49,621 bases of DNA. It comes from Gemmatimonas sp. (GTDB taxonomy: Bacteria; Gemmatimonadota; Gemmatimonadetes; Gemmatimonadales; Gemmatimonadaceae). Each line of letters opens with the position of its first letter. Within the stretch, counting starts at the first letter, position 1. The stretch covers positions 1-49,621 of the forward strand of contig JAJKIV010000171.1 of assembly GCA_021154285.1 (NCBI GenBank). The letters run 5' to 3'. The translations under genes and the position numbers were made by a program. Below, one piece after another: positions 1,285-49,581 of this stretch. Below the pieces are notes generated by a model. That model was not told the DNA's origin. It worked only from the letters and a program-made list of their open reading frames with translations, and did not search any database.

Positions 1285-2963
1285 CCCGGCGACGCGTTAG
1301 GCGCCGGGGCGGCTGCGGGCGACACGCTGGCCGACCCGCCAGACCGCGCCTGCTTGAGCACCCGAACCAGCCCCATCACGTTTTCGCGGAAGAAAAGCCA
1401 GATCGCCGCGGCGTACGCGAGTGCTCCCACGGCAACCTTCAGTGCCAACATGACCAGCAGCGGTAAGTCGCCCGGAATCGCCGCGCTCACGCCAAGCACC
1501 GTGACCGCCATGAGTGTCGTCGACACCAGCGCCGGGGCAATGGCCGGTACGTAATCCCGAATACCGATGCCCAGGTGGCGCGAGACGCGGTGCAGCATTG
1601 GGAAGAGTACGACCGGCGCATGCACGATGATCCACGCCGTCGCGATGCCGACAATCCCCCATCGCGAGCCGACAAAGAACCCGATCGGGAGGCAGATCGC
1701 GGCGGAGATGTTCCGGCGCATCGTGTAACGCGTATCGCCGGTGATCGTGAGCGCCTGTGCGAGAATCGGAGTCAACGAGCGCACCCCCGCGTAGAGCACG
1801 AGCAGACGCAGCGGCACGATTGCCGCCTGCCATTTCGCTCCCACCGCTGCTAGGACGAGCTCACGTGAAACCAGCGCGACTCCGGTGGTGGCCGGGAGGA
1901 GTATCAGCGCAAGCGCTCCCATGATGCGCGTGATGTATCGCGTGAGGAGCGCGCGATCATGCTTCGACGCGGAGAAGATCGATGAGGTGACGCCGTTCAC
2001 GAGCGACACCACCTTGTCCACGATCGAGTAGGCGAGGCTCCACGCAAAGGTGTAGTTCCCGAGCGCTGCCTTGCCGAGCACCTTGCCGGCGACGAAGAAG
2101 TCGGCGCTCTGGGAGATGTACCAGGCAGCGCTCCCGATGAGGATTTCTCGGCTCGTCTTGAGCGTGCCGCGCAGCTCGTGAAACTGCGGCCATCGGAACC
2201 CGAGTGGTTTCCAGAACGTCGCAAGCGTCGTGGCCATGAGTCCTCCAGCCACCGTGCTGATGACGAGTGACCAGTACCGCGCTCCCGCAAATGCGAGCGT
2301 AACAGACGCGGCCGCGGTGACGAGCGCGTTCACTCCGTCCAGTATCGCATACCGGTGGAACTCAAGCTCTCGCTGCATCACGGCCTGTGGGACCGTTCGG
2401 AGCGAGACGAGAATGAAGTTCACGCTCATCACGACGATGATCCACTTGAGGGCGGGTGCGCCGAAAAAGCTCGCGATGAGTCCCGAAACGAGACAGGACA
2501 GCATGAACCCGCCCACCCCGACCAGGGCGGCGAACGTATGCACTTCCGCCAGCGTGGTTCCCCGAAGCTCGCGGAGCGCGATCACGGTCGTGCCCATGCC
2601 GGCCTCGCTGACGAGGATCAGGAAGCCGTAGTAGACGGCGGCCATGCCGACGAGCCCGTAGTCGTCTGGCGAGAGGATCCGTGCGACGACGAGCGTGGAC
2701 GCCCACGCTGCGACCTGGGTGAGCCACTTCACGCTCCCCGTCCAGGCCACGCCCCGCACCAGGCTTCGGTCGAGCGACGCTCGATCGAGCGGCCGATGCC
2801 CGCGGGTGTCCCCGTCGGCGACCGGTATGGGTTGTGAAAGCGAAGGGTCCGTCACGTCTGCTTGAAAGAGAGTCGGCGACGTCGTCGTCGCTCGCGCGTC
2901 GTATGTAGTCGAACCCGCTGGTCGCACCGCGCGGCGGTCCAGCGGCGGCGCACCGATATGCAC
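1281..2963 (-). CDS. Oligosaccharide flippase family protein (Wzx-like, MATE/MOP fold); start uncertain
   Basis: Multi-TM protein, SVKWLTQVAAWASTLVVARILSPDDYGLVGMAAVYYGFLILVSEAGMGTTVIA; 4-bp overlap with downstream GT2. Confidence 0.85.
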   Translation of the reverse strand: MHIGAPPLDRRAVRPAGSTTYDARATTTSPTLFQADVTDPSLSQPIPVADGDTRGHRPLDRASLDRSLVRGVAWTGSVKWLTQVAAWASTLVVARILSPDDYGLVGMAAVYYGFLILVSEAGMGTTVIALRELRGTTLAEVHTFAALVGVGGFMLSCLVSGLIASFFGAPALKWIIVVMSVNFILVSLRTVPQAVMQRELEFHRYAILDGVNALVTAAASVTLAFAGARYWSLVISTVAGGLMATTLATFWKPLGFRWPQFHELRGTLKTSREILIGSAAWYISQSADFFVAGKVLGKAALGNYTFAWSLAYSIVDKVVSLVNGVTSSIFSASKHDRALLTRYITRIMGALALILLPATTGVALVSRELVLAAVGAKWQAAIVPLRLLVLYAGVRSLTPILAQALTITGDTRYTMRRNISAAICLPIGFFVGSRWGIVGIATAWIIVHAPVVLFPMLHRVSRHLGIGIRDYVPAIAPALVSTTLMAVTVLGVSAAIPGDLPLLVMLALKVAVGALAYAAAIWLFFRENVMGLVRVLKQARSGGSASVSPAAAPAPNASPG

Positions 2964-3112
2964 GGCGTGCGCCGGTACCAGCTGCCTTCACGTCGGATCC
3001 AGAGGCGTCCGGTGGATCCGTGTTGCAGGGCTGCCACATACAATGTGCACAGTCGGCCATCCCGAGTCACGCCCTCCCAGGCGCCAGGGTATGGTCGTTA
3101 CCGTACTCCTCG

Positions 3113-4831
3113 ATGCCACCCACGCCAAACTCCAGACCGCCGCTCCGAGTCGGGCTGCTCCTCGACTCGTACCAACAGCCGGCCTGGGTGTTGGCCACCA
3201 TCGATGACATCCAAAAGTCGTCCGTCGCAACGATCTCGCTGATCGTGAGAAACGCTTCACCCGGGGCGGTCGTGGGGCCGCGCGGGTCGGCGGCAACGAG
3301 ACTTTCCCGGTGGTACGCCAACCGCCACAGCCTGCTCTTCGCGCTCTATGAGCGGCTCGACCTGCGCAGGTTCGCCGCGGCCGACGATCCGATCCGCATG
3401 ACCGACGCGTCGTCAGCGCTGGCCTCCGTTCCAGCGGTGGACGTCACACCACGCGAAAAGAAGTTCTCGGATTACTTCGACGACGCTGACGTCGATCGCA
3501 TTCTCGCGTACGACCTGGATGTCGCGCTGCGCTTCGGTTTTCGCATCCTGCGCGGCCGCTCGCTCCGCATCGCACGGTATGGTGTGTGGTCGTATCACCA
3601 TGGCGACAATCTCGCCAATCGCGGCGGACCTCCGGGATTCTGGGAAGTCATGGAGGGCGTTCCGACCACCGGCTCGGTTTTGCAGGTCCTGTCCGAGGAC
3701 CTGGACGCCGGCCGGGTGATCTACCGCTCGCAGGCGCGGACGCAGCCGCTGTCGGTGACGAAGAACCGCGCCGGGTACTTCTGGAAGACGTCGGAGTTCG
3801 TGATCCGCAAGCTTCGCGACCTCTACGAGGATGGCGAGAGCGCGCTCGTCGATCCGGAACCCATGGCTCGCCACCCGCAGGCGTACTCGCATCGCCTCTA
3901 CGTCACGCCGAAAAACGCGGAGCTCGCGCCGCACCTCGGTCGCCTCGTGACTCGTTATGCAGGCGTGAAGCTCCGCGAGCTCGCGACGGTCGATCAGTGG
4001 GCGCTCGCCTACCGCTTCGGGTCGAAGACCTCCACGGACCACGTACCCGATCTCGCGCCGTTCCGGTTCAAGCCGATCATCCCGCCGATCGATCGGTTCT
4101 GGGCCGACCCGTTCCCGATGCAGATCGACGGCCGCTTCTACGTGTTATTCGAGGAGCTCAAGTTCCGCTCTCCAAAGGGCACGATCCGCGGCTTCGAGCT
4201 TGGCGAGCAGGGCATGATCGGCGACTCCGTGCCGGTGCTCGAGTGCGACTATCATCTCTCGTATCCGTACACGTTCGAGTGGCGCGGCGAGCGCTTCATG
4301 ATTCCGGAGTCGGTCGCGAATCGGACAGTGCAGCTCTACCGGGCCGTGAAGGCGCCGTACGAATGGGCGCTGGAGCGCGTGCTGCTCACCGACGTGCGGC
4401 TCGTCGACTCATCGGTCGTCGAGATCGACGGGCGCTGGTGGATGTTCGCGGGGACGGTGTCGCGAGGCGGCTCGCGGTGCGATGAGCTGAACATCTACTA
4501 CGCGGATTCTCCGCTCGGGCCCTGGTGCGCGCACCGGAAGAATCCGGTGATCTCCGACGTTAGGCATGCGCGTCCCGCCGGTCGACCGTTTCAGGTTGGC
4601 GATACCTGGTATCGCCCCGCGCAGGACTGCTCGCGCCGCTATGGTTGGGGGGTGACGCTGCGTCGTGTCGTGCGCCTCGATCCGAGCGAGTTCGTGGAGG
4701 AGACCGTGACCAGGTTGACGCCGGACTGGGACCGATCGCTTCTCGCCACACACACGGTCAATGCCGTGAACGGTCTGACGCTGATCGACATGGAGCGACG
4801 GCGGCGCAAGGCGTGGCTGGGCGGCAAATAG
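3113..4831 (+). CDS. Formyltransferase-like N-terminal domain fused to a C-terminal GH43-like/GINT1-N-type beta-propeller domain
   Basis: Start at MPPTPNSRPPLRVGLLLDSYQQ (ORF 3020..4831). N-half: KKFSDYFDDADVDRILAYDLDVALRFGFRILRG...GVWSYHHGDNLANRGGPPGFWEVMEG (formyltransferase-like). C-half: RFWADPFPMQIDGRFYVLFEEL...RFMIPESVANRTVQLYRA...WWMFAGT repeats (propeller-like). Confidence 0.7.
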   Translation: MPPTPNSRPPLRVGLLLDSYQQPAWVLATIDDIQKSSVATISLIVRNASPGAVVGPRGSAATRLSRWYANRHSLLFALYERLDLRRFAAADDPIRMTDASSALASVPAVDVTPREKKFSDYFDDADVDRILAYDLDVALRFGFRILRGRSLRIARYGVWSYHHGDNLANRGGPPGFWEVMEGVPTTGSVLQVLSEDLDAGRVIYRSQARTQPLSVTKNRAGYFWKTSEFVIRKLRDLYEDGESALVDPEPMARHPQAYSHRLYVTPKNAELAPHLGRLVTRYAGVKLRELATVDQWALAYRFGSKTSTDHVPDLAPFRFKPIIPPIDRFWADPFPMQIDGRFYVLFEELKFRSPKGTIRGFELGEQGMIGDSVPVLECDYHLSYPYTFEWRGERFMIPESVANRTVQLYRAVKAPYEWALERVLLTDVRLVDSSVVEIDGRWWMFAGTVSRGGSRCDELNIYYADSPLGPWCAHRKNPVISDVRHARPAGRPFQVGDTWYRPAQDCSRRYGWGVTLRRVVRLDPSEFVEETVTRLTPDWDRSLLATHTVNAVNGLTLIDMERRRRKAWLGGK

Positions 4832-4998
4832 AGCTTCTTGAACGGCATCACTGAGCTTCGCCGAATTCAGTGTTAGGTCTTGCCGTTACCCCCACGGTCC
4901 CGGTCGTGTGCCAACGTGGTGCAGTCCTGTGACCTCCGTGGTTCATTCATTTCTTTTTTGCGTCGACCGTGTCGACCAAGGTCGGGGGAGCCATCCCG

Positions 4999-6939
4999 TT
5001 AGGCTGGAGTGTGATCGCGGAACACGTCGAGCGCGAGCTCCACCTTCCCGAACGGCGCCGACACCTGGACGCCCTGCACGGCCGACTTTACACACGCGAG
5101 CATCTCGCGCGCGATCATGATCCCCTCGGCCACCGCGTGCTCTTTCGACTTCTCGTTGGCGCGACGCATCCGCGTGATCACGCTCTCCGGCACCACCACG
5201 CCGGGCACCTCGTTCGCCAGGAATTCCGCGTTGCGGACGGACACGAGCGGCCAGATACCAGCGATCACGGGGATGCGGACGTGATCGATCTCGCCGAGGA
5301 AGCGCTCGAGCTGCGCGACATCGAATACCGGCTGCGTGATCGCATACTCGGCCCCCGCTTCGACCTTGAACTCGAACCGCTTGAGCTCGAGGGCCGGGTC
5401 GACCGCCGCGGGGTTCACCCCAACACCGATCGCATACCGCGTCGGGGCGCCGATGGGGTTGCCGCCCGGGTCGAGCCCGTGATTGAGGTTGCGAACGAGG
5501 TTGGTGAGCCCGATGGAGTCGATGTCGAAGACCGCCGTGGCGTCGGGGTACGGGCCCATCTTCGGCGGGTCGCCCGTAATGACCAGGATGTTTCTGAGCC
5601 CCATCGCCGACGCGCCTAACAAGTCGCTCAGCATGCCGAGCAGGTTGCGGTCGCGGCAGCAGTAGTGTGTGACGGTCTCGATGCCGACCTGCTGCTCGAT
5701 GAGGAGGCTGGTCATGACCGCGCCCATGCGGCTCTGCGCGCGTGGCCCGTCGGGCACATTGACCGCGTCGACGCCTTCGCGCTTCAGGGCTGCGACGTCG
5801 GACAGCATCTTGCTCGCGTCGACCCCGCGCGGCGGAACGATCTCGACGGAGGTGACCATCTCGCCCTTCGCGATCTTCGCAGCGAAATGCGAGCGGTCCG
5901 CCAGCGGAACTGGTGTACAGCCCTTGGACGGGGAACCGGGAACAGGGAACGGGGAACCGCGGCTCCGAGACGCTTCTGTTCCCGGTTCCCCGTTCCCTGT
6001 TCCCGCCGTTCCGGTTCCCGGTTCCCGGTTCCTGGTGCCCGTTATGCGCGGCGCTAACGGCCGGACTCCGGAGACGATCGACCGGATATGATCCGGAGTC
6101 GTCCCGCAGCACCCGCCGATGAGCTTCGCGCCTGCCTGGATGAGATGCCGCGCATACGACGCCATGTATTCAGGGCTCGCCATGTACATGCTGCGCCCGC
6201 CGACATCGCGCGGCATGCCGGCGTTAGGCTGGGCGCTCAGCTTCTTCCGCGTCACGGTCGCCATCTTCTCGATCGCTTCGAGAATGGCCTGCGGGCCGAC
6301 CGAGCAGTTGAGTCCGATGACGTCGACGTCCAGCTGCTCGAGCGTGCGGGCGACATCGTCCGGGCTCGCGCCATACGGCGTGCGCCCGTCGACACCGATC
6401 GTCATCTGCGCGATCACCGGCATCGTCGGGTCGACCGCCCGGGCGGCACGAATGCCCTGGCTGATCTCCGCGAGGTCGCCGAACGTCTCGAGCAGGAAGA
6501 GATCGACCCCACCGTCCCTGAGCGCCTGCATCTGCTCGTGGAACGTCAGGTAGGCCTCTTCGACGCTCGTTGGCCCGTAGGGCTCGATGCGCACGCCTAA
6601 CGGCCCGACGGCGCCAGCCACGAGGTGGTCGTCACCGGCCACCTCGCGCGCGATACGTGCCGCCTCCCGGTTGATCTCCCGGACCTGCGACTCGAGCCCG
6701 TATTGCGAGAGCTTCAGCCGATTCGCGCCGAACGTGTTCGTCTCGAGAACTTCAGCCCCCGCCTTCGCGTACGCGGCGTGGACACCGCGCACGAGATCCG
6801 GCGTCTTGAGGTTGAGCTCATCGTAGCACTGGTTGATGAACACGCCTTTGGCGTACAGCATCGTCCCCATCGCGCCGTCGAAGACGACGACGCGCTCGGG
6901 ATCGAGCAGGCGATTCAACAACCCGGCTCGCGTGGTCAC
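4999..6939 (-). CDS. Bifunctional homocysteine S-methyltransferase / methylenetetrahydrofolate reductase (YitJ-type fusion)
   Basis: N-term VVFDGAMGTMLYAKGVFINQCYDELN...GGCCGTTPDHI (Hcy methyltransferase); C-term VTSVEIVPPRGVDASKML...ILVITGDPPKMGPYPDATAVFDIDSIGL...QPVFD (MTHFR). Overlaps metH by 4 bp. Confidence 0.92.
   Translation of the reverse strand: MTTRAGLLNRLLDPERVVVFDGAMGTMLYAKGVFINQCYDELNLKTPDLVRGVHAAYAKAGAEVLETNTFGANRLKLSQYGLESQVREINREAARIAREVAGDDHLVAGAVGPLGVRIEPYGPTSVEEAYLTFHEQMQALRDGGVDLFLLETFGDLAEISQGIRAARAVDPTMPVIAQMTIGVDGRTPYGASPDDVARTLEQLDVDVIGLNCSVGPQAILEAIEKMATVTRKKLSAQPNAGMPRDVGGRSMYMASPEYMASYARHLIQAGAKLIGGCCGTTPDHIRSIVSGVRPLAPRITGTRNREPGTGTAGTGNGEPGTEASRSRGSPFPVPGSPSKGCTPVPLADRSHFAAKIAKGEMVTSVEIVPPRGVDASKMLSDVAALKREGVDAVNVPDGPRAQSRMGAVMTSLLIEQQVGIETVTHYCCRDRNLLGMLSDLLGASAMGLRNILVITGDPPKMGPYPDATAVFDIDSIGLTNLVRNLNHGLDPGGNPIGAPTRYAIGVGVNPAAVDPALELKRFEFKVEAGAEYAITQPVFDVAQLERFLGEIDHVRIPVIAGIWPLVSVRNAEFLANEVPGVVVPESVITRMRRANEKSKEHAVAEGIMIAREMLACVKSAVQGVQVSAPFGKVELALDVFRDHTPA
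5931..6034. repeat. Heptanucleotide tandem repeats GGGAACN and their inverted copy GTTCCCN, in-frame in the interdomain linker
   Basis: GGGAACC GGGAACA GGGAACG GGGAACC at 5931-5958; GTTCCCG GTTCCCC GTTCCCT GTTCCCG at 5978-6005; further units 6014-6034. Perfect 23-bp inverted repeat 5937-5959 / 5983-6005. Confidence 0.95.
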
Positions 6940-9900
6940 GCCGCCGACTCTCCCGCCGCCGTTTGAGCTGATGGCTGATGGCTGATGGCGGATGGCTCAC
7001 CACCCGATGTACCACGCACCGCGTAGTATTTCGCCTCCGGGTGGTGTACGATCATCGCCGCAGTCGACTGTTCAGGCACAAGCTGATACGCACTCGTTAG
7101 GGTCATCCCCAGCGCCTGCTCGACGGGCAGCAGCTTGAACACCTGTGCGTGATCGTCGAGATCCGGGCAGGCTCCATAGCCCCAGGAGTAGCGCTTCCCC
7201 TGCGCGCCCGAGATCCCGAGCTCGCGACGGATCCGCCGATGCATCCACTCGGCCGTTGCTTCCGCCGCTTCGACCGCGAGACCGTGCGAGTAGAACGCCT
7301 CGGTGTACTCACCCGCCTGCTGTAGCTCGTCGAATCGGCGCGCGGCCGCATCGCCAACCGTCACTACCTGCAGCGCGACAACGTCCACGTCCGATGACTG
7401 CGTCGACCGGAAATAGTCCGCGAGGCAGAGCCGATCGCGTCCTTCCTGACGCGGAAAGTGAAATCGCGCGATCTCACGAAGTGATGCGCCATCGCTCTCA
7501 TACGCCGCCGGATCGTAGACGACGAGGTCGTTCCCGTCGCTCTGCACCGGGAAGAACCCGTACACTGCCTGCGCCGCGAGCCAGCCATCACGCTTCGCTT
7601 CCGACGTTAGGCGGTCGAGCGTTGGCTTGAACTCGTTGCGAACGGTCGCCTCATACTGCTCGCCCGACCCACGGCCGCCCCACTGCAGGCGATAGAGCTC
7701 ATCGAGGTCGAGCAGCTCGAAGACTTCGTCCAGCGGGATGTCACGCACGACGCGCACGCCGAAAAACGGAGCGACGGGCAGGGCATTGTCCGCGCGGACA
7801 TCGCTGCGCTGGCCGCCCCGGTCGCCGACTGCGATGTCCTTGCCCACCGTGGTGCGCAGGAAGACGTCGTTCCGCGCGGCCTCGAGCGCCCCCGCAACGA
7901 ACTGCGAGCGACGGTCGACGTCCTGGAGTACGTCCATCGTCTCGAGCCCTTCGAACGCGTCCTTGCAGTAGAACACCCCGGGTCCGTATGGGCGCTCGCC
8001 GTCCACGAAGAGCGCCCGTCGCCCGAATCGCCGGTTGATCGCCGCGCCTCCGATCAGCACGGGGATCTGCATCCCGCGGCGATCGAGCTCCTGAACGCAG
8101 AGCGGCATCTGCTTGGATGTCGAGACGAGCAACGCGGAGAGACCGATTGCGTCGGCGCCGACCTCGATGGCCTTGTCGAGAATCGTGTTCACCGGCACCT
8201 GCTTGCCGAGGTCGAACACGGTATAGCCATTGTTGGAGAGGATGGTATTGACGAGCGACTTCCCGATGTCGTGCACGTCGCCGTACACGGTCGCGAGCAC
8301 GACCTTGCCCTTCGTGTAGCCCTCTTTGCGTTCCAGGAACTGCTCGAGGTGCTTCACGGCCTTCTTCATCACCTCGGCCGACTGCAGCACGAACGGCAGA
8401 ATGAGCTCTCCGGCTCCGAACTTGTCCCCGACCTCCTTCATGGCGGGGAGCAGCACTTCGTTCAGCACGCGAACCGGGTTTTCGCGAACGCCCGCTGCGT
8501 CGAGCGCCGCCTCGACGCCGTCCTTCTTGCGGTGCAGAACCATCCAGTGAACCCGGGCTTCCGGCATCTCGAACTGCGGACCGGATTCCGCTTCTTTCCC
8601 GCTTCCCTCCTCCTTCCCGCTTCCCTCGAAGTGCTCGATGAATTTCTGAAGGGCGTCGGGAGACTTGTTGAACACCAGGTCATCCGCCAGGCGTCGCTCA
8701 TCGTCGGGCACTTCGAAATACGGCCGAACGTGCGCTGGATTCACGATCGCCGCGTCGAGCCCCGCCTGCACGCAGTGGTGCAGGAACACCGAGTTGAGCA
8801 CCGCGCGCGCCTCGGGCGTGAGCCCGAAGCTCACGTTCGACACGCCGAGGATCGTGAACACGCCCGGGAGCTCGCGCTTGATGAGTCGGATGCCCTCGAT
8901 CGTCTCCTTGGCACTCTCGATCCACTCGGCATCGCCGGTCGCGAGCGTGAACGTCAGCGCGTCGTAGATGAGATCCGATGGCGAGAGCCCGTACTCATCG
9001 ACGACGATATCGTGAATCTTCCGCGCGACCTCGAGCTTCCGTTCGCGCGTCTTCGCCATGCCGATCTCGTCGATCGTCAGCGCGACGAGCGCGGCGCCAT
9101 GCTTCTTTGCGAGCGGCACCACGGCGTCGATGCGTTTCCGGCCGTTCTCCATGTTGATGGAGTTCACGATCGCGCGTCCCGGCACGTGCTCGAGCGCCTT
9201 CTCGATCACGGACGCTTCCGTCGAGTCGATCATGAGCGGTGTCTCGACGGTCATCGAGAGCAGCTTCACCACCTTCGACATCTGCTCGGCCTCGTCGGCG
9301 CGCTCCGTGAGCGCAACGCACACATCGAGCACGTGTGCGCCCGAGTCGACCTGCTCCCGCGCGACGTCCACGATCGATTCGTAGTCGTCGGCGAGGAGCA
9401 GCCGCTTCACCTTCCGGGATCCCTGCGAGTTGACCCGTTCCCCGACGAGCAGGGGAGGGGGATCCTGGTGAAGGGTGATGGCCCGCATCGCGCTGCTCAC
9501 GCGCGCTACGCGCGCGTGCCTCCCCGTTCCCGCCTTTGCCCGTTCCCCGTTCCCGGTTCCCGCGCCGCGAATAGCCTGAACGACGGCGGAAAGGTGCTCG
9601 GGGCGCGTTCCGCAGCATCCGCCGACAATCCTGACGCCGAATTCGTGAACGAATTCGGCCAACGCACGCGCCATGGGCTCCGGCTCGAGCGGGTACACCG
9701 CCTCCCCGACGCCCGTGTTGATCGGCAGCCCCGCGTTAGGTATCACCGAGATCGGATGCGTCGCGTGCTGCGTGAGGTAGCGCACCGGCTCGCGCATGTG
9801 CTCCGGACCCGTCGAGCAGTTGAGCCCCAGCACCTCGATGTCGAGCGCCTCGATCGTCGTCATCGCGCTCGCGATGTCGGTCCCGAGCAACATTCGGCCG

Positions 9901-11453: not shown

Positions 11454-11461
11454 GAACTGCG

Positions 11462-13226: not shown

Positions 13227-14116
13227 AGGGCATCGTCCTCGCGGGCGGCTCCGGCACGCGCCTGTACCCCATTACGCGCGCGGTGAGCAAGCAGCTGTTG
13301 CCGGTGTTCGACAAGCCGATGATCTACTACCCGCTGTCGACCCTGATGCTGGCCGGCGTCCGGGACGTGCTCATCATCTCGACACCGGACGAACTGCCGC
13401 GCTTCCAGCTGTTGCTCGGCGACGGCTCGCAGTGGGGCGTCTCGTTCAGCTACGCCGAGCAGCCGGTGCCTAACGGGTTGGCCCAGGCGTTCGTGATCGG
13501 CCGTGAGTTCGTCGGCGGCGATCGTGTCGCCCTCGTTCTCGGTGACAATCTGTTTTACGGCGGCGGCCTGGGGGCGCTTCTCCAGAAGGCAGCCGCCCGG
13601 TCGTTAGGCGCGACCGTGTTCGGCTACACCGTGAGCCATCCGCAGCGGTACGGCGTCATCGAGATCGCCCCGGATGGCCGCGCGCTCGACATTGTCGAGA
13701 AGCCGGAGCACCCGCCGTCGAACTACGCGGTCACGGGCCTGTATTTCTACGACAACGATGTGCTGTCGATCGCGGCCGGCCTCCAGCCATCGCGCCGGGG
13801 AGAGTACGAGATCACGGACGTGAACCGCGCGTACCTGCAGCGTGATCGACTGCACGTCGAGCTGCTCGGGCGCGGGATCGCGTGGCTCGACACGGGCACC
13901 CACGAGTCACTACTCGACGCGAGCAACTTCATCGCGGTGATCGAGCACCGGCAGGGACTCAAGGTCGGCTGCGTCGAGGAGGTCGCGTTTCGCGCTGGGT
14001 ACATCGACGCCGAGCAGCTACAGCGCCTCGCGACACCTCTCTCGGGGAGTGGATACGGTGAATACCTGATGCGGGTGGCGCGAGAATCGAATCCCGAGCG
14101 GCTCACGGACTACTGA
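13223..14116 (+). CDS. rfbA: Glucose-1-phosphate thymidylyltransferase
   Basis: [77 protein letters not shown] overlap with rfbB. Confidence 0.95.
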
Positions 14117-27884: not shown

Positions 27885-27978
27885 CGACAAAGGCAAAGCC
27901 GCTCGAAAGGCGGTGACGCAAAGCCATTGGGGCTACCGTGCGCAACGAGGCGCACCACGCTTGCCAGGCCGCCGACCT
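27885..27978 (+). promoter_or_regulatory. Cyclic-di-GMP-I (GEMM-type) riboswitch
   Basis: gacaaaggcaaagccgctcGAAAggcggtgaCGCAAAGCCattGGGGCTACCGtgcg...cttGCCAGGCCGCC; same core as the 23185 element, upstream of a paralogous gene. Confidence 0.85.
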
Positions 27979-27997
27979 AACGGGGAGTACAAAGACG

Positions 27998-30330: not shown

Positions 30331-30349
30331 GGCATCCAGACCTCTCGCG

Positions 30350-31435: not shown

Positions 31436-31442
31436 TGCGGCG

Positions 31443-32669: not shown

Positions 32670-32671
32670 CG

Positions 32672-38406: not shown

Positions 38407-40577
38407 AGCAGGTGTTACGAAAGGGCCTCAAGCACATCGTCGTGGACGAGGTACCGGATCCGGCGCCCGCGCCGCATCACGTCCTCGTTCGCCCGGTGTA
38501 TTCGCTCATCAGCGCCGGCACTGAAACGGCGAGCATTCACAAGGAAAGTCTCCTGAGCAGCGTCGCCGAGAATCCGTCGCACCTACGCAAGATCTACGAC
38601 GCGATGAAGGTGGCAGGGCCTGTCCGGACCGTGGCTGAGGTTCAGGCGAAGTTCTCGGAGTACGCCGCATTGGGCTACTCGGGCGCCGGTTACGTGGTGG
38701 ACCGCCACCCGTCGGTGACGGACCTCGAGATCGGCAGTCGCGTCGCCTATGGCGGCGAGGGCACCGGACATGCCGAGACGGTGCTGTCCGGGCGCCTGCT
38801 GACAGCCCGTATTCCGGATGAAGTGTCGTTCGAGGAAGCCTGCTTTACGACGTTAGGCGCCATTGCCATGCATGGCGTCCGCATGGCGAACCTCGGCGTC
38901 GGCGACGTCGTCGCCGTCGTGGGGATGGGGATGATCGGCCAGCTGGTCGCGCAGATTGCGCGCGCGCAGGGTGCTGTGGTGATCGCGCTCGACCTGCGCC
39001 CGGACCGAATCACGCTTGCCGAGCGACTCGGGGCGGATCACGCATTCGCCCCGGGCGACGAGGCCGAGCGGCGTATCGCGGCGCTCACGGCGGGACGCGG
39101 CGCGGATTGCGTGATCGTCGCGGCCGCCGCCAAGTCATCGGCGCCGGTGGAGTTGGCGCTGCGACTCTGTCGCGAGCGCGGACGGGTCGTGGTCGTGGGC
39201 GCGGTGGAGATGAACCTCTCGCGCGACCTGATGTACGTGAAGGAGATCGACGTCGTCGTCTCGCGCGCCTATGGACCGGGGAGCTATGACCCGGCGTACG
39301 AGCGTCAGGCGCGCGACTACCCGGCTGGGTACGTCCGGTGGACCGAGAACCGGAACATGGAGGAGTTTCTCCGGCTCATCGCGACGAAACGTGTCGACGT
39401 TAGGCCGATGATCAGTCACACGTTCGACCTTGCCCAGGCGTCCGCGGCGTACGACACGATCATGGCGCCGGGGTCGAACAGCCTCGCGGTCGTACTGCGC
39501 TACCCGGACCCCGCGGTGTCTGGTTCGGAGCTGACGTTCACGCCGCGCCGGCGCGTCGATCTGGCGCCGGCGGCGCCGCGAAAATCGGGCGATCTCAAAG
39601 TGGCGTTAGTTGGAGCAGGCAATCTCGCGCGGTGGGCGCACCTCCCGAACATCGCGAAGATCGATGGCGTCTCGCTGCACGCGGTGTATTCCGCGAGTGG
39701 TCCGCGCGGCGCGACGTACGGCAAGCGATTCGGCGCGGCGTACGCCAGCTCGGACTACCAGCAGATCCTCGACGATAAGGACATCGAGATCGTGCTTATC
39801 GTGAGCAGGAACCAGCAGCACGCCGAACAGGCCGAGGCAGCGCTGCGCGCTGGCAAGCACGTATTTCTCGAGAAGCCGATGGCGCTCACGGAGCTCGAGT
39901 GCCGCGCGCTGAATACCGCGGTCGAGGAAAGCGGCAGGCTGCTCACCGTGGGATTCAACCGGCGCTTCGCGCCGTTCTACGTCGAGCAGAAGCGGATGCT
40001 GTCGCGCCGCAGCGGTCCGGCCGTCGTGAACTGCCGCGTGAACTCACCGGGACTCTCGGGCACGTACTGGGCAGCCGAAGCGGCGCACGGCGGAGCGATT
40101 CTCGGCGAGGGTTGTCACTTCACCGACCTGCTCTACTGGCTTCTCGAGTCCGAACCAGTGTGGGTGAGTGGGGCATGTCTACCGACCACCGCGAAGGAGC
40201 CGATCGGCGACCATAACGTGGCGACGACGATCGGGTTTGCCGACGGGTCGGTTGCGAACCTCACGTACTGCACGATCGGCAGCAAGACCTCGGCGGGAGA
40301 GCGCGTGGAAGGCTGGGCGCCCGGCCTCGGTGCGATCGTCGAGGACTTCAAGTGGTTCCAGTCGCGCACGGGAACGCGCAGCACGAAGTCGAAGTGGTGG
40401 CCCGAGAAGGGCTACGAGCAGCAGATGCGTGGGTTCATCGAGTCGATCCGCAAGGGCGCCGCGCCCGCGGTGTCGGTACGCGACGGCGCACGATCGACGC
40501 TCGTGTGCCTCCGCATCCTCGAGTCGGTGCGCGACCGCACGCCGCGCACCGTGGATCTCGACGCGCTGCTGGGTTGA
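38403..40577 (+). CDS. Bi-domain oxidoreductase: zinc-type alcohol dehydrogenase-like domain + Gfo/Idh/MocA domain
   Basis: MKQVLRKGLKHIVVDEVPDPAPAPHHVLVRPVYSLISAGTE...VGMGMIGQLVAQIARAQGA...VALVGAGNLARWAHLPNIAKI...HVFLEKPMALTELEC. Confidence 0.92.
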   Translation: MKQVLRKGLKHIVVDEVPDPAPAPHHVLVRPVYSLISAGTETASIHKESLLSSVAENPSHLRKIYDAMKVAGPVRTVAEVQAKFSEYAALGYSGAGYVVDRHPSVTDLEIGSRVAYGGEGTGHAETVLSGRLLTARIPDEVSFEEACFTTLGAIAMHGVRMANLGVGDVVAVVGMGMIGQLVAQIARAQGAVVIALDLRPDRITLAERLGADHAFAPGDEAERRIAALTAGRGADCVIVAAAAKSSAPVELALRLCRERGRVVVVGAVEMNLSRDLMYVKEIDVVVSRAYGPGSYDPAYERQARDYPAGYVRWTENRNMEEFLRLIATKRVDVRPMISHTFDLAQASAAYDTIMAPGSNSLAVVLRYPDPAVSGSELTFTPRRRVDLAPAAPRKSGDLKVALVGAGNLARWAHLPNIAKIDGVSLHAVYSASGPRGATYGKRFGAAYASSDYQQILDDKDIEIVLIVSRNQQHAEQAEAALRAGKHVFLEKPMALTELECRALNTAVEESGRLLTVGFNRRFAPFYVEQKRMLSRRSGPAVVNCRVNSPGLSGTYWAAEAAHGGAILGEGCHFTDLLYWLLESEPVWVSGACLPTTAKEPIGDHNVATTIGFADGSVANLTYCTIGSKTSAGERVEGWAPGLGAIVEDFKWFQSRTGTRSTKSKWWPEKGYEQQMRGFIESIRKGAAPAVSVRDGARSTLVCLRILESVRDRTPRTVDLDALLG

Positions 40578-40581
40578 TCGC

Positions 40582-42342
40582 CTAACGATCTACGACGACC
40601 CCTTCCAGTCGCTTTTTCAGTCCGTTCAGGTCGGCACCGGGATCGGTGCCGCCTGGACCCCGCTGTTTGAAGTCGCTCTTGGCGCGGAGGCGGAAATCGT
40701 GGCCCTCCTGGTCGACGAAGCCGATGTGCGCGATGGTCGGCGCGTACCAGTTGCCGGTCGGGTGAAGGCGCACGTACTGCGGGTCGACGCCGCCGATGAC
40801 GTTGCGCGCAAACGTCCACGAATCGCCCGCCATCGCGCGCAGGCTCTCCGAGCCGACCTGTTTCCCCGAGTAGAAGACCCCGTAGCCGACGCCGCTCGTG
40901 AACACGTTGTCGGTGATGGTGAGGTGACGCGCCTTGCCGTTTCCGTAGTCCATGACGAGGGGCGTACCGCGGTTCGGTATGTTGCCGACGAACGTGTTGT
41001 GCCGGATCGCCACGTCGCGCAGGTCGTGTGTGAGCAGCATTAGGAAGCCGTCGGATCCTGTTTCGTTGTACGTCCCGATGTTGTAGAACAGGTTGTTCTC
41101 TGCGCGAACGCGCTGCACGTGGACGTCCACGCACGCCTGGCCGGTGCAGTCGACCGCCTGGAGGTTGAACCCGCGCGGCGAGTTCTTCACCATGTTGTAG
41201 CGGAAGGTGACGTCGGTCGTGCCCTGCCACGTACACGTGCCGCAGGAGTCCTGCGACGACTTGATCACGATGGCCATGCCTGACTGCGCGTCGGCCCAGT
41301 TGTTCTCGAAGACGTTGTCCTCGACGAGCACGCGGCGGGCGTTCTTGAGCTCGAAGAGATTCTTCACCGTCCAGCGACCCTTCCAGCGGGCGTCCTTGAA
41401 GAAGTGATTCCGTCGAATGGTGATGTCGCTGGGCGACAATCCCTGAATGCCGGGATCGGCGCCACCGAACATGACGGTCTCGCCGGCGCCGGAGAGGAAG
41501 TTGTTCTCGATCAGGAACGGACCGGGGCCGTTCCACCCCTCGATGGCCTGCGAATCGAACCCCTTCGCGTGGCAATCCGAGACCCACGAGTTCACCACCG
41601 CCGATCGCGCCGAGTTGAGCGCGATGCAGCGCACCAGGTTCGTCGCCGCTGTTCCATGCACGTAGACCCGGTCCAGGATGATGCGGGACGGGACGCGGCC
41701 GGGTGACGTCTGCGTATCGCCGCCCTTGGCCCATCCGCCGTCGCCTAACGCGATGAGCGCGTAATGTATCGCCCCGGGGGCGAGCTCCGACGCGACCGTC
41801 ACCTCGAGCCCGAAGAGCCGCCAGCCGCAGGTCGGGTTCTCCGTGCGAAGCGCCGGCTTGTCGTTGCGCGTCGCGATCTTGGCGAGGCGTGCCGACGCGG
41901 CGGGCGTGATGCGCTCGCCGTCGGCCGGGAGGTCCGAGTCCGGCACGTCGGTGCGCACGACGATTGGTGCGGCGCCACACGGCTTGGTGGGCAGGATGAA
42001 GTTCCCTGCGTACGTCGCGCCGGACGCGAGCCGGATCACGTCCCCCGGCTTCGCGCGGCCTAACGCCGACTGCAGGTTGTCGTTCGCCCCGACGCGGATG
42101 GTCTGACCCGTGGACGGCACCGAGCGGACATCGACCTCCGATCGCGGGAGGTCCGCGACGCTGTCACGCGGGGTGGTGTCGTTCTGCGCCGGCGTTGCGG
42201 CGATCGCCGCGCGCACGTCGCGCAGCGTGGTGGAATCGGCGGTGGGGTTCGATTGCGGTGTGGAACGCTCGGGGCACCCGAGGAGCACGGCGAGGCCAGC
42301 CGCGGCGCCGAGCAGGCGGTGCGTGAATATGACGTTAGGCAT
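40582..42342 (-). CDS. Right-handed beta-helix lipoprotein, third paralogue, lacking Ig-like repeats
   Basis: LLGAAAGLAVLLGCPE lipobox; LGRAKPGDVIRLASGATYAGNFILPTKPCGAAPIVVRTDVPDSDLPADGERITPAA...NNVFENNWADAQSGMAIVIKSSQDSCGTCTWQGTTDVTFRYNMVKNSPRGF. Confidence 0.88.
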   Translation of the reverse strand: MPNVIFTHRLLGAAAGLAVLLGCPERSTPQSNPTADSTTLRDVRAAIAATPAQNDTTPRDSVADLPRSEVDVRSVPSTGQTIRVGANDNLQSALGRAKPGDVIRLASGATYAGNFILPTKPCGAAPIVVRTDVPDSDLPADGERITPAASARLAKIATRNDKPALRTENPTCGWRLFGLEVTVASELAPGAIHYALIALGDGGWAKGGDTQTSPGRVPSRIILDRVYVHGTAATNLVRCIALNSARSAVVNSWVSDCHAKGFDSQAIEGWNGPGPFLIENNFLSGAGETVMFGGADPGIQGLSPSDITIRRNHFFKDARWKGRWTVKNLFELKNARRVLVEDNVFENNWADAQSGMAIVIKSSQDSCGTCTWQGTTDVTFRYNMVKNSPRGFNLQAVDCTGQACVDVHVQRVRAENNLFYNIGTYNETGSDGFLMLLTHDLRDVAIRHNTFVGNIPNRGTPLVMDYGNGKARHLTITDNVFTSGVGYGVFYSGKQVGSESLRAMAGDSWTFARNVIGGVDPQYVRLHPTGNWYAPTIAHIGFVDQEGHDFRLRAKSDFKQRGPGGTDPGADLNGLKKRLEGVVVDR

Positions 42343-42351: not shown

Positions 42352-43533
42352 TCAATGAGAATGACCGGCGTCCGCCAACAGCCGCTCGTAGAGCCGCTCG
42401 AGCGATCCAACCACGGCCGCGGCGTGAAACTCTTCACGGGCGCGTTGCGCACCGACCGCGCCCATCCTCCGTCGTAGGTCTGCGTCCCGCAGTAGCACGC
42501 GGAGTGCATCGGCGAAAGCCGGCGCATCGCCGGCCGCCACGAGCAACCCGTTCTCGCCGTTGCGCACCGCGTCGCGCACGCCGCCGACGTCGGTTGCGAC
42601 GATCGGCCGACCAGCCGCCATCGCCTCGACGAGCGAGTTGGGGAATCCCTCGGAGATGGAGCTCAGCACGGAGATGTCGAACAGAAAGTGAAAGCTCGGG
42701 ACCTGCGGCCGCAGCCCCGCGAAACGTACGGCAGGCGCGATCCGGAGCTCGTCGGCGAGCGCGCGGAGGCGCTCCAACTCCGGCCCCTGGCCAACGATGA
42801 CGAGACGCAATGTAGGCCACTCCGGAACGAGTGCTGCCACCGCTCGGAGCAGGGTTGCGTGGTCCTTGATCGGCAGGAGGGATGCGACGATGCCGACCAC
42901 GACGGCGTCCGGTTCGAGGCCAAGTTCCCGGACCCATGCCTGCCTAACGTTGGAGGCGGGGGCGCCGAACGCCGCTTCGTCGACGAAGTTAGGGACCACC
43001 ACCACACGGCCACGTGAGAGCCAATCGTCGCGCTGCAGTGACGCGGCTACGGCGTCACTGTTCGCGATGACGCGCGTCGCGGCGCGAAACCCAACACCAT
43101 TCGCTATGCGATATCGCCATGGCGAGTGGAGCCAGCGTTTGCTCGCGACGATCACCGGGACACGGGCCCACCGCGCTGCCATCGTCGAGAAGAAGTTCGA
43201 GTACTGGTCGTGACAGTGGACCACGGACACCCGCTCGTCGCGCAGGAAACGCGCGAGGCGAACGCCCTGCCGTACCGTCTCGGTTCCGTAAAGGTTTTGG
43301 ATCGGAAAGCGAAGGACCGGCACACCCATCCGCTCGTACCGCTCGGTGAGCGGGCCTTCGCCGCGCAGCGTCACCACGCTCAGCCGATAGCGTTCCTGAT
43401 CAAGACGCTCGGCCGTGCGGACCGCGTTCATCTCCGTCCCACCGACGCTCATGGTGTCGATGGAAAACACGACGTGGACTCGGTCACGCTCTCTCACAGG
43501 GGCCGGGCGGGCGTCAATCACAGCTGAGGACAT
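42352..43533 (-). CDS. Glycosyltransferase family 4
   Basis: VHVVFSIDTMSVGGTEMNAVRTAERLDQERY...VSVVHCHDQYSNFFSTMAARWARVPVIVASKRWLH...EGFPNSLVEAMAAGRPIVATDVGGVRDAVRNGENGLLV. Confidence 0.92.
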   Translation of the reverse strand: MSSAVIDARPAPVRERDRVHVVFSIDTMSVGGTEMNAVRTAERLDQERYRLSVVTLRGEGPLTERYERMGVPVLRFPIQNLYGTETVRQGVRLARFLRDERVSVVHCHDQYSNFFSTMAARWARVPVIVASKRWLHSPWRYRIANGVGFRAATRVIANSDAVAASLQRDDWLSRGRVVVVPNFVDEAAFGAPASNVRQAWVRELGLEPDAVVVGIVASLLPIKDHATLLRAVAALVPEWPTLRLVIVGQGPELERLRALADELRIAPAVRFAGLRPQVPSFHFLFDISVLSSISEGFPNSLVEAMAAGRPIVATDVGGVRDAVRNGENGLLVAAGDAPAFADALRVLLRDADLRRRMGAVGAQRAREEFHAAAVVGSLERLYERLLADAGHSH

Positions 43534-43764: not shown

Positions 43765-45225
43765 ATGAGACCTCGTCAGGGTGGTTGGCGAAGTGCACGT
43801 CATGTGGTGCCACCACCACAGATGGCGGTCGTCGACGCAACGCCAGCGCAAACGGGCACCGTTGCGCCCGTCACGCGGGCGCAACGGGGACGCGCCCGCG
43901 CCGCGAGCGCCGCCACCAGCGAGTCGCTGGTCGCATCGTTCTTGAGGGGGACGGCGCAGCATCCCGCGACGTGGTCGGTGAGCTTCGTCGGCCTGCTCGT
44001 GTACCTCTTCTCGGCCGTGACGTATCGTCTGCCGCTCGTCATTCCGGCGATGGTACTGGCGCTCCTTGGGCTCCTCATGGAGCGCCGCGTCACGGTTCCG
44101 TTTTTCGTGATGCTGTTTGCTGCCTACTTGGCCTGGGCCGCGGCGAGCTACACGACGAGCGTCGACCCCGCAGGCACTCTCGCGCAGACCATCGTGCTCG
44201 CGAAGGTCTTCGTGATCTGCTTCGTCATCGCCAACGTCACGCGCGACGGTTGGCGCATGCGCGTGTTCATGGTGTTCTTCCTCGCGTGCTTCGCGTTGTA
44301 CCCCGCACGCGGAACGTTCGTGAACTACTTCATCGCGCGGTACACCGTCTTTGGCCGTGCGTTGTGGAATTACATCTACAGCAACCCGAACGACCTCGCG
44401 GCGCTCACGTTCTTTCCCCTCGCGCTCTCGGTCGCGGTCGCGCTCACCGAAACGAACAAATGGATCAAGCGTGCCGCGCTCGCGGGCGTCGCCGGGCTGC
44501 CGCTGATGATCCTGCTGACGCAATCACGTGGGGCTTTGATCGCGCTCGTCGTCTCCGGCATCGTGTTCTTCATCGTGCACACCAAGGGGCGGCGTGTGCG
44601 CTCATTGCTGGTGGCGGCCGCCGCGGCGATTGTCCTTCTGCCGTTCGTTCCGCGATCCGCTTGGCAGCGTTTCGGGGGATTGGGAAAACTGGCCAGCGGG
44701 AACGTGATCGAGGCTGACCCGGAAGGCTCTGCGGACGCGCGCTACAACATCTGGCGCGTCGCGGGGACGATCATCAAGGAAAATCCGGTGTCGGGGATCG
44801 GCCTCGGCGTGTACCCGCGTGGCCACGCCATGTATGCCCCGCGCGTCGGCGTCCCCGACGCCGCGCTCGGATTCCGCGACACGCACAGCACGTATCTCAA
44901 CGTCGCGGCCGAGACGGGAATCCCCGGCCTTCTGCTGTTCCTCGCCACGGTCGGCGTCGTCGCGGTGGCGTCGGAACGCACCCGTCGACTCGCGCGCGGC
45001 TCTCCTCGTGCCCAGCAGCTGTTGGCGCTCGAGCTCGGGCTACTGGGTTTTATGTTGGCCGGCGTCTTCGGCTCGTTCGCGAAGTTGAGCTTTCTCTACA
45101 TGCAGCTGGCGATCATGTGGTCGGTGACGGACATCACGAAACGAGAGCTGGCCGCCGGAGCCGTGCTACCCATGCGAAGCGCGATCCCGCAGGGCCGCCG
45201 TTCGCAACGTCTCGCTGCCCGTTAG
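43765..45225 (+). CDS. O-antigen ligase / Wzy-type polymerase family membrane protein (start uncertain; ORF 43537..45225)
   Basis: Multi-TM; RALWNYIYSNPNDLAALTFFPLALSVAV...LTQSRGALIALVVSGIVFF...GIGLGVYPRGHAMYAPR...RDTHSTYLNVAAETGIPGLLLFL. Confidence 0.88.
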   Translation: MRPRQGGWRSARHVVPPPQMAVVDATPAQTGTVAPVTRAQRGRARAASAATSESLVASFLRGTAQHPATWSVSFVGLLVYLFSAVTYRLPLVIPAMVLALLGLLMERRVTVPFFVMLFAAYLAWAAASYTTSVDPAGTLAQTIVLAKVFVICFVIANVTRDGWRMRVFMVFFLACFALYPARGTFVNYFIARYTVFGRALWNYIYSNPNDLAALTFFPLALSVAVALTETNKWIKRAALAGVAGLPLMILLTQSRGALIALVVSGIVFFIVHTKGRRVRSLLVAAAAAIVLLPFVPRSAWQRFGGLGKLASGNVIEADPEGSADARYNIWRVAGTIIKENPVSGIGLGVYPRGHAMYAPRVGVPDAALGFRDTHSTYLNVAAETGIPGLLLFLATVGVVAVASERTRRLARGSPRAQQLLALELGLLGFMLAGVFGSFAKLSFLYMQLAIMWSVTDITKRELAAGAVLPMRSAIPQGRRSQRLAAR

Positions 45226-45373
45226 GCGCCGCGCCGCGTTTGAACCGACTCGTGCGAAGATGGCTCGGCGAAGTTCCTGGTCCGAGCGCCCCAGAGTTGT
45301 GGCGCCGAGGCAACATGGAAACATCTCGCGCGTCGATTCGCGACTTTGCTCGGCGGCGTATCAGTCCGCTAAA

Positions 45374-45507: not shown

Positions 45508-45564
45508 TAAACCGGGCTCGGCGTTCGTTCTCGAAGTAAAGCAGGGCGGTTTCACCAGATCGCG

Positions 45565-46476
45565 ATGGCCATGTTCGACGTGTCGGTGATCATCGCATCG
45601 GTGGAGTCGGCACGATCGATCGAGCGCTGTATCGAGTCGGTTTGCGCGGCGCTCGAAGGGAGAAGTTCGGAAGTGATCGTCGTCGATGCATCACGCGACA
45701 CGAGCGCGGACATTGCGGAGCGCGATTTCGGACACGCGGCGGTCGTCATACGCTGCGCGCCGGGCACGCTCACGCCCGAGCTCTGGGCAATCGGGATTCG
45801 TCTGTCGACCGGACGTGTGATTGCTTTGACGACCGGGCACTTCGAGGTAGGGCAAGCGTGGGTGGAGAATCTGGAGTCGGCGCTCAGAGCGGGTCACACC
45901 GGCGCAGCCGGTAGACTCGATCTCGCCGATGCGACGTCCGTTACCGACTGGGCAGTGTTTTACCTCCGATATTCGGAGTTTTTGCAAGAACCCAAGGAAG
46001 TGTGGCGCGGTGTTCCGGGGATTCCCGCGGACAACGCGGCTTACGACGGTGAGGCGATTCGGCGATTCGTGATGAATTCAGACGACGGCTTCTGGGAAGT
46101 GGAATTTCACCGCCAGCTTCACGCCGCTGGTGGCTCGCTCGCGGTGGTGCCCGGTGCGACGGCGCGCTACGCGCGCTCGTTCCCCTTTCCAACCATCGCT
46201 CGCCATAGGTTTCACCACGGTCGCCACGCCGGCGCGTGGCGTGCTTCGCGGGCTGGCCGTTCGGCGGCCATGATTGTCGCCGGCACTCCGCTCGTTCCGT
46301 TCGCGCTGGCGCTGCGTGCCTGGCGTCGCGTGCGTCCCATGGTGGAGCACCGCGGTCGATTCGTGCGCGCGCTCCCGGCGTTTCTCGTCCTTGCCACCTG
46401 CTGGGCGGTCGGTGAGGCAGTAGGCGCCATCGGCGGGGCCCCTGCGCCGAGTGGTTCCGTCCCGAGGCGCGCCTAA
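45565..46476 (+). CDS. Glycosyltransferase family 2-like, paralogue A (possibly degenerate)
   Basis: FDVSVIIASVESARSIERCIESVCAALEGRSSEVIVVDAS...ALPAFLVLATCWAVGEAVGAIGG; acidic ED of paralogues B/C replaced by TG. Confidence 0.72.
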   Translation: MAMFDVSVIIASVESARSIERCIESVCAALEGRSSEVIVVDASRDTSADIAERDFGHAAVVIRCAPGTLTPELWAIGIRLSTGRVIALTTGHFEVGQAWVENLESALRAGHTGAAGRLDLADATSVTDWAVFYLRYSEFLQEPKEVWRGVPGIPADNAAYDGEAIRRFVMNSDDGFWEVEFHRQLHAAGGSLAVVPGATARYARSFPFPTIARHRFHHGRHAGAWRASRAGRSAAMIVAGTPLVPFALALRAWRRVRPMVEHRGRFVRALPAFLVLATCWAVGEAVGAIGGAPAPSGSVPRRA

Positions 46477-46478
46477 CG

Positions 46479-48339: not shown

Positions 48340-48405
48340 GATGTTCGCCGTGTTGACCTCGCGCGCGCTGCGGGCGAACGTGGTTGGAACGGAGGCCGAT
48401 ACCTG

Positions 48406-49581
48406 ATGCGCATCGGGGTGGATGCGACGTGCTGGGCAAATGCCCGCGGGTATGGGCGGTTCGCTCGCGAGCTGCTTCGCGCAATGGTCGTCGAGGGCGC
48501 GTCGCACGAGTTCGTGTGTTTCGTCGACGAGCGCTCGGCGCGGTGCTTCGATCTGGTCGGTGCTGGCGTGCGCACGGTGTTGGTGCGGCAGTCGGCGTCA
48601 CCGACGACCGCGGCGAGCGCGAACGGCAACCGTTCGCTGAGTGACATGTGGCGCATGACGCGAGCGGTTGCGCGCGAGGACCTCGACGTGTTTTTCTCGC
48701 CGTCGGTCTACACGTATTTCCCGCTCCCACCCATGCTCGCCGCGGTGATCACGTTCCACGACGCGATCGCCGATAAGTTTCCCGAGCTGACGCTCCCGTC
48801 ATCACGAGCGCGGCTTTTCTGGCGCATGAAGGTACAGATGGCACTGGCGCAGTCGCGCCTCGTGCTCACGGTGTCGGATTACGCGGCGGCCCAGGTCAGC
48901 CGGACGCTGGGCGTGCGTCGCGATCGCATTCGCATTGCGGTGGAGGCGGCGGCGCCGGCCTACAGGCCGAGCGAGTCGGCAGAGGATGTTCTCGCGGCGG
49001 CGCGGCGCGCCGGGATTCCCGACGGCCGGCGCTGGTTCGCCTACGTGGGCGGCTTCAACCCGCATAAGCACGTCGACGCGATCGTGCGTGCGCACGCGGC
49101 ACTCGTCGGTGATCTCACCGATCCGCCGATGCTCGTGCTCGTTGGCGCGATCGACGACGACCCATTCTTCGGCGCGCAGAAGCGCATCCGTGACGAGATC
49201 GCGCGATGCGGCACGGGTGATCATATCCGCTGGGCGGGGTACGTGCCTGACGATGAGCTGCGCCATCTCTTGTCTGGCGCGCTCGCACTCGTGTTGCCGT
49301 CGGAATCGGAGGGGTTCGGTTTGCCGGCGGTCGAGGCGGCTGCCTGCGGCGTCCCCGTCATCGCGACCACCGAGAGTCCGCTTCCGCAGTTGCTGGCGGG
49401 CGGCGGGATTTTCACCGCGCCGCGGGACGAGATGGCGTTAGGCGCCGCGATGCGGCGCCTTGCGACCGACGAGCCGCATCGCCGCGCGCTCGCGGCCGGC
49501 GCGCTCGCGCGTGCCGGTACGCTGAGCTGGACGTCGAGTGCGAGAGCAGCGCTCGACGCGCTGGTGGAGGCGGCCGCGTGA
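48406..49581 (+). CDS. Glycosyltransferase family 4 (mannosyltransferase-like)
   Basis: MRIGVDATCWANARGYGRFARELLRAMV...FFSPSVYTYFPLPPMLAAVITFHDAIADKFPEL...FAYVGGFNPHKHVDAIVRAHA...ALVLPSESEGFGLPAVEAAACGVPVIATTESPLPQLL. Confidence 0.92.
   Translation: MRIGVDATCWANARGYGRFARELLRAMVVEGASHEFVCFVDERSARCFDLVGAGVRTVLVRQSASPTTAASANGNRSLSDMWRMTRAVAREDLDVFFSPSVYTYFPLPPMLAAVITFHDAIADKFPELTLPSSRARLFWRMKVQMALAQSRLVLTVSDYAAAQVSRTLGVRRDRIRIAVEAAAPAYRPSESAEDVLAAARRAGIPDGRRWFAYVGGFNPHKHVDAIVRAHAALVGDLTDPPMLVLVGAIDDDPFFGAQKRIRDEIARCGTGDHIRWAGYVPDDELRHLLSGALALVLPSESEGFGLPAVEAAACGVPVIATTESPLPQLLAGGGIFTAPRDEMALGAAMRRLATDEPHRRALAAGALARAGTLSWTSSARAALDALVEAAA

Follow-up and report, generated by a model that had tools for sequence, protein, structure and literature searches.

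We asked why one short word, CGTTAGG, is scattered over the 49,621 nt of the window (the whole stretch of DNA that was analysed), which belongs to a Gemmatimonadaceae MAG of 5.69 Mb in 488 contigs, referred to below as the own genome. Exact copies on the two strands number 39, with 24 on the plus and 15 on the minus strand, and the following base is C in 29 of them, T in eight, G in one and A in one; our recount is identical to the figures given in a first-pass annotation of this DNA. The enrichment claimed there is real, but its size, put at 6-7 fold, was too low: in 100 dinucleotide-preserving shuffles of the window the heptamer occurred 2.54 times on average and eight times at most, which corresponds to an enrichment of approximately 15-fold. 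No broader consensus and no conserved arms were visible in the flanks of the 39 sites. In addition to these, the window contains one copy of TGTTAGGC and two of CGTTATGC. The 39 sites and the single TGTTAGGC are located as follows:

1295..1302, plus, word CGTTAGGC
4558..4565, plus, word CGTTAGGC
4997..5004, plus, word CGTTAGGC
5614..5621, minus, accepted variant TGTTAGGC (enriched, 33 observed against 1.7 expected in 384 kb)
6222..6229, plus, word CGTTAGGC
6595..6602, minus, word CGTTAGGC
7095..7102, plus, variant CGTTAGGG
7605..7612, plus, word CGTTAGGC
9734..9741, plus, dialect-B form CGTTAGGT
13468..13475, minus, word CGTTAGGC
13602..13609, plus, word CGTTAGGC
15103..15110, minus, dialect-B form CGTTAGGT
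16445..16452, minus, word CGTTAGGC
17567..17574, plus, dialect-B form CGTTAGGT
21329..21336, minus, word CGTTAGGC
22968..22975, plus, dialect-B form CGTTAGGT
23019..23026, minus, word CGTTAGGC
23455..23462, plus, word CGTTAGGC
24328..24335, plus, dialect-B form CGTTAGGT
24487..24494, minus, word CGTTAGGC
24713..24720, minus, word CGTTAGGC
27975..27982, minus, dialect-B form CGTTAGGT
30348..30355, plus, word CGTTAGGC
30791..30798, plus, word CGTTAGGC
31441..31448, plus, dialect-B form CGTTAGGT
31835..31842, plus, word CGTTAGGC
32670..32677, plus, word CGTTAGGC
33376..33383, plus, word CGTTAGGC
34929..34936, plus, dialect-B form CGTTAGGT
37835..37842, minus, variant CGTTAGGA
38851..38858, plus, word CGTTAGGC
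39398..39405, plus, word CGTTAGGC
40580..40587, minus, word CGTTAGGC
41743..41750, minus, word CGTTAGGC
42058..42065, minus, word CGTTAGGC
42333..42340, plus, word CGTTAGGC
42942..42949, minus, word CGTTAGGC
45220..45227, plus, word CGTTAGGC
46471..46478, minus, word CGTTAGGC
49436..49443, plus, word CGTTAGGC

Across the own genome CGTTAGG was found 4,968 times (2,525 and 2,443 copies by strand), while the reversed word, used as a control, yielded 629 copies (299 and 330). The order-2 Markov expectation for CGTTAGG is about 218-220, giving a 23-fold enrichment, and for CGTTAGGC 3,749 copies were observed against 86 expected, or 44-fold; TGTTAGGC and CGTTATGC are over-represented 19-fold and 8-fold, respectively. 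These genome-wide expectations were scaled up from 384 kb of the same genome, and Markov orders 2-3 were chosen because the word lifts its own sub-words, so that tests of maximal order mask it. The first-pass annotation had named two outcomes that would speak against its claim, namely genome-wide counts close to a Markov expectation and enrichment limited to the window; the observed counts exceed expectation 23- to 44-fold and extend far beyond the window.

Counts of single-change variants in the 384-kb sample (observed, with expected in parentheses) gave CGTTAGGC 232 (5.8), TGTTAGGC 33 (1.7), CGTTATGC 34 (4.4), CGTTAGGT 60 (2.9), CGTTAGGG 24 (2.9), CGTCAGGC 74 (38) and CGTTAGGA 11 (3.1), with the remaining variants close to expectation, and the consensus of the recognition word is YGTTAGGC, eight bases long and non-palindromic. 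Intergenic copies show hardly any conservation outside these eight bases, apart from a weakly favoured G at -4 in Gemmatirosa and, 3′ of the word, a weakly favoured R. In 441 kb of Gemmatirosa kalamazoonensis (G016) the corresponding figures were 271 (5.1) for CGTTAGGC, 29 (1.0) for TGTTAGGC and 1 (1.9) for CGTTAGGT. There are two dialects with a common core: one, approximately NGTTRGGC, has a strict final C and raised levels of GTTGGGC (G016, G030 and G021), and the other, approximately CGTYAKGY, has a relaxed final base and raised levels of CGTTATGC and CGTCAGGC (G000, G020/G069, G028/G181 and others). Two of the differences between the dialects are significant at Fisher p < 1e-11.

Copies of the word are spread over both strands of the whole genome and lie mostly within genes, which were called with a simple GC-frame ORF caller rather than taken from curated annotation; protein conservation cannot account for the word, as had been argued from the window. 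In a codon alignment of rpoB it occupies conserved Ala/Pro-Leu-Gly codons, with Leu encoded by TTA in carriers and mainly by CTC or CTG in genomes low in the word; the change from CTC to TTA, which recruits the word in rpoB, takes two synonymous substitutions. Lineages that lie far apart on the tree independently recruited the word at the same columns (2020, 2854, 3835 and 4927). The conserved codons that hold the rpoB sites align without gaps or accompanying indels, which excludes an origin as insertion scars. Within the word fall 110 of the 123 TTA codons examined in Gemmatirosa and 104 of 175 in the own genome, but none of 83 in low relatives. Sites encoding PN[VADEG], which fit the reverse word, carry it in 59 of 100 and 53 of 114 cases, as opposed to 0 of 57 in low relatives; moreover, Pro-Asn sites at which the reverse word could be written are more frequent per codon in the own genome, indicating that the proteins have been slightly bent as well. 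Persistence was assessed between genomes that agree at only about half of their synonymous codons: Leu-Gly sites bearing the word were identical in 12 of 20 cases, compared with 3 of 39 for the remaining Leu-Gly sites (p = 3e-5, with small numbers). The comparison of synonymous sites in relatives, which the first-pass annotation had suggested, thus finds the word both recurring and persisting there, and this persistence is maintenance, through either selection or continuing drive.

Such drive could in principle be non-adaptive, a mutation or repair bias resembling Vsr-like conversion that makes the word without any function, as Elhai proposed for some HIP words in describing them as an epiphenomenon of this kind (PMC4390886). 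Patchiness would then follow the gain and loss of one enzyme. We regard this account as decidedly improbable: none of the neighbouring words shows the consistent depletion expected of a substrate, many sites need two changes (CTC to TTA), the amino-acid sequence is bent too, and the tolerated variants follow a specific pattern (Y at position 1, a dialect-specific position 8) rather than a general decay spectrum. That some sequence-specific process acting at the DNA level favours and keeps the word, be it selection or word-specific drive, is in our judgement very likely, and we infer that a protein reads it.

Among 395 genomes of the phylum the word is limited to Gemmatimonadales and is at background level elsewhere. 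Of 35 genera of Gemmatimonadaceae, about 11 carry it at 72 to 873 copies per Mb (g1, to which the window belongs, g6, g12, g17, g21, g22, g27, g29, g31, g34 and g49), and Gemmatirosa kalamazoonensis is among the carriers; the other genera among 179 further Gemmatimonadaceae have 0 to 70 copies. Outside this family it was found at lower density in f2 (g47, g61 and, weakly, g57) and in one genome of f3 (G040). On the RpoB tree word-rich and word-poor genera are intermingled, and the high and low states require eight changes, at least six of them forced by supported branches: G016 (596 per Mb) and G030 (431 per Mb) cluster with G015 (4 per Mb), and within the single genus g22 there are 873 copies per Mb in G021 versus 1 per Mb in its congener G137. 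RpoB was used because MetH is represented only by a distant paralogue in Gemmatirosa and others; the own MAG lacks rpoB, and its position was taken from MetH, whose named relatives lie in Gemmatimonadaceae/Gemmatimonadetes. One old origin with repeated loss and repeated gain are equally possible, as the change counts cannot separate them. No other prominent dispersed word was found in word-poor relatives, for which single loci of approximately 20-25 kb were searched, a size at which weak words are undetectable.

The placement of the word bears on what might read it. Its sites are equally divided between the strands, and no orientation relative to the replichores was seen across 20 segments of the Gemmatirosa chromosome, unlike what the suggested parallel with Chi/KOPS would lead one to expect. 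Chi sites are contiguous, non-palindromic 5-8-mers, and the helicase-nucleases that read them are often lost. YGTTAGGC resembles Chi and KOPS in being short, non-palindromic and over-represented, and on these grounds a helicase-nuclease might read it when double-strand breaks are repaired or once DNA has entered the cell; but the word, in addition to having no replichore orientation, is enriched far above known Chi. Ten word-rich genomes (G020, G021, G030, G028, G181, G033, G253, G054, G268 and G040) lack the AddB/RecB-type nuclease domain PF12705, so that an AddAB/RecB Chi reader of the PF12705 type fails as the common factor, and two-gene AddAB-like matches occur mostly in low genomes. A Chi-like role is accordingly quite improbable.

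The word is 1.5- to 2.3-fold denser in intergenic DNA, with neither inverted pairs at terminators nor a preference for gene ends seen at its sites, and it is dense on a small plasmid contig of Gemmatirosa. In the own genome the spacing is more even than random (variance/mean 0.67-0.80). This evenness, the density near one per kb and the presence on plasmids would suit a nucleoid-organising or chromosome-maintenance protein needing a site about every kilobase, separately from uptake or repair. Such a protein is nevertheless distinctly unlikely, as in Gemmatirosa and the majority of the other word-rich sets the sites are randomly spaced, no candidate protein was found and sister genera live without the word.

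The first-pass annotation had called the word HIP1-like, and this holds only loosely. Like the cyanobacterial HIP1 (GCGATCGC), YGTTAGGC is a highly iterated octamer found in genes and patchy among relatives (PMC4390886); unlike it, YGTTAGGC is not a palindrome of the GCGATCGC type, has no GATC/CGATCG core, has dialects and is switched on and off between sisters. The purpose of HIP1 is itself unresolved (PMC4390886). By analogy, an orphan DNA methyltransferase might modify the word, with mismatch repair, a nucleoid function or biased repair accumulating it: HIP1, of comparable density and patchiness, has been linked to orphan methyltransferases (PMC4390886), and one Eco57I-domain protein of approximately 1,070 aa is kept in nearly all genomes tested. 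Besides the non-palindromic form of the word, the distribution of the two methyltransferase types examined counts against this, and we consider it unlikely. PF01555 methyltransferases are missing in word-rich G016, G020, G021, G005, G033, G268 and G040, and Eco57I proteins (PF07669) are missing in word-rich G253 and G268 and occur in low genomes as well, so that neither tracks the word; a search for a co-occurring methyltransferase, which had also been suggested, found none of these two types common to the word-rich genomes.

A coincidence absent from the first-pass annotation is that integron attC sites, those of Gemmatimonadales among them, also have GTTAGGC as their core. The attC sites of this order have CGTTAGGC and TGTTAGGC cores, and many of the scarce word copies present in word-poor genomes are such cores within cassette arrays, which makes YGTTAGGC a common attC core of Gemmatimonadales. 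The word could therefore be imagined as the IntI core site GTTRRRY, seeded or maintained genome-wide by the integrase or by cassette insertion, and among Gemmatimonadaceae of 90% completeness or more, IntI was indeed found in 12 of 12 word-rich and 56 of 96 word-poor genomes (p = 0.003, uncorrected for phylogeny). The same figures mean that IntI, present in many low genomes, does not discriminate, and in word-rich G268, G285, G296 and G262 no IntI match rose above the level of Xer.

The tolerated variants also differ, although the core itself matches GTTRRRY. Among attC cores of high genomes GTTAGAC is frequent (11, versus 16 for GTTAGGC), yet dispersed CGTTAGAC is not enriched in the samples of the own genome and G016 (11 copies in the dialect comparison, the G016 integron region included), and CGTTATGC, which is enriched in the own genome, falls outside GTTRRRY. 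Thus, the dispersed word shares with attC a GTTAGGC preceded by C or T, within the same order, but is stricter at position 7 and accepts CGTTATGC, and occurs as single copies in both orientations inside genes; at these sites neither an attC hairpin with paired R and L boxes nor an attI beside intI was found. An origin from integron scars is ruled out by the gap-free conserved codons, and IntI as the reader is unlikely in view of the mismatch in variant tolerance and distribution. The integron link is already largely refuted, and we consider it very improbable.

DNA uptake sequences, another of the parallels drawn in the first-pass annotation, describe the word better than HIP1 does. Like the DUS of Neisseriaceae and the USS of Pasteurellaceae, it is short, non-palindromic and strongly over-represented genome-wide at roughly 0.1-1 per kb, equally on both strands (PMC3630211, PMC2346458), and mostly genic yet richer between genes, without replication-orientation bias; uptake sequences are under-represented in coding DNA of H. 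influenzae (PMC2346458). Its related dialects in related genera find a counterpart in DUS, for which dialects sharing one core are known (PMC3630211). It is also missing from an integron cassette array: in part of the G016 integron region the cassettes hold the word only in attC, with none over about 5.2-10.4 kb, and the DNA beyond them has the usual density. On the other side, the phylum and the word differ and YGTTAGGC, at eight bases, is shorter; the inverted terminator pairs typical of Neisseria DUS and the gene-end bias of Pasteurellaceae USS were not seen, and both absences count against uptake. The dense word on the small Gemmatirosa plasmid, and even spacing that is clear only in the own genome, were likewise counted against it.

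The DNA channel protein ComEC was found in the own genome and in 16 of 17 word-rich relatives examined, but is equally common in low genomes and hence not discriminating; none of ComEC, PF01555, Eco57I, AddB/RecB-type nucleases and IntI is a common factor of the word-rich genomes. No receptor was identified among these candidates, and no report of experimental competence in the phylum was found in the literature searched; both count against uptake. Enrichment, patchiness, synonymous recruitment and persistence mark YGTTAGGC as a genome-wide recognition word of double-stranded DNA that arises and is retained through single-base changes at largely synonymous or intergenic positions, presumably because a sequence-reading DNA system favours it. 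An uptake signal best fits its density, its equal division between the strands, its excess between genes, its dialects and its lack in the cassette array, and we tentatively suggest, by analogy with DUS and USS, a class of signal known to produce such words (PMC3630211, PMC2346458), that the word may serve self-DNA recognition in natural transformation. In this model a type IV pilus or competence-associated receptor is predicted to bind YGTTAGGC; word-bearing DNA would be preferentially taken up and recombined, a step that is entirely conjectural, and the word would thereby spread and stay in the core genome. Two related receptors could give rise to the two dialects, and receptor loss would let the word decay to background in sister genera.

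Taken as a whole, we judge it probable, at roughly 0.8, that Gemmatimonadales possess a previously undescribed recognition word, YGTTAGGC, which exists in two or more dialects, is upheld by selection, has been repeatedly gained or lost, and is perhaps an uptake signal or the target of a new DNA-reading system that coincides with the integron core. No description of the word was found in the literature searched, a coverage that excluded most subscription journals. To our knowledge, few words are iterated across whole genomes, and those few have a restricted phylogenetic range; self-DNA uptake signals are established in two proteobacterial families. The on/off switching between sisters (873 versus 1 per Mb in one genus), together with the natural dialects, means that the reader gene can be sought by presence/absence comparison, which long-stable systems do not allow. 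The use of synonymous sites and rare TTA codons in word-rich genomes points to a constraint at the level of DNA and not of translation, and this bears on codon-usage and molecular-clock analyses. If the word is an uptake signal, self-DNA recognition would have evolved in a little-studied soil phylum, and would offer a handle for its transformation.

Chromosomal integrons with well-formed arrays of attC, the cassette site whose core can likewise read GTTAGGC in this order, are present in Gemmatimonadales (loci L017, L018, L019, L020, L270 and L277), and an integron integrase scoring above the curated cut-off was found in 93 of 179 Gemmatimonadaceae genomes. At 22968-23026 of the window, two copies of the word (YGTTAGGC, here once in its dialect-B form) face each other in a short intergenic gap, with about 44 bases between them; this is the reverse of the attC arrangement.

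The window also carries an exopolysaccharide-type gene cluster comprising glycosyltransferases, O-antigen ligase, asparagine synthases and heparinase, within which two c-di-GMP-I riboswitch aptamers adjoin two large Big_2/beta-helix surface-type ORFs at their start regions:

23180-23283, plus strand, c-di-GMP-I riboswitch aptamer (49.4 bits)
27882-27976, plus strand, c-di-GMP-I riboswitch aptamer (59.7 bits)

Nearly all Gemmatimonadaceae possess a single conserved Eco57I-domain protein per genome, about 1,070 aa in length, as exemplified by the following domain matches (genome:contig:positions; G016 is Gemmatirosa kalamazoonensis):

G000:C17:20785-21642, Eco57I-domain match
G016:C2:5085172-5086065, Eco57I-domain match

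In another Gemmatirosa contig, L021 (G016:C1; 20,952 bases), the gene pattern recurs at an offset of 14,997; the contig is apparently a circular plasmid, about 15 kb long, whose assembled sequence includes about 6 kb of repeated ends.

Two-gene AddAB-like helicase-nuclease matches occur chiefly in genomes poor in the word (G137, G029, G009 and G031), whereas most word-rich genomes, with the exception of G285, yielded no such two-gene match. G285 aside, the presence of AddAB-like helicase-nucleases and word richness may therefore be weakly anti-correlated.
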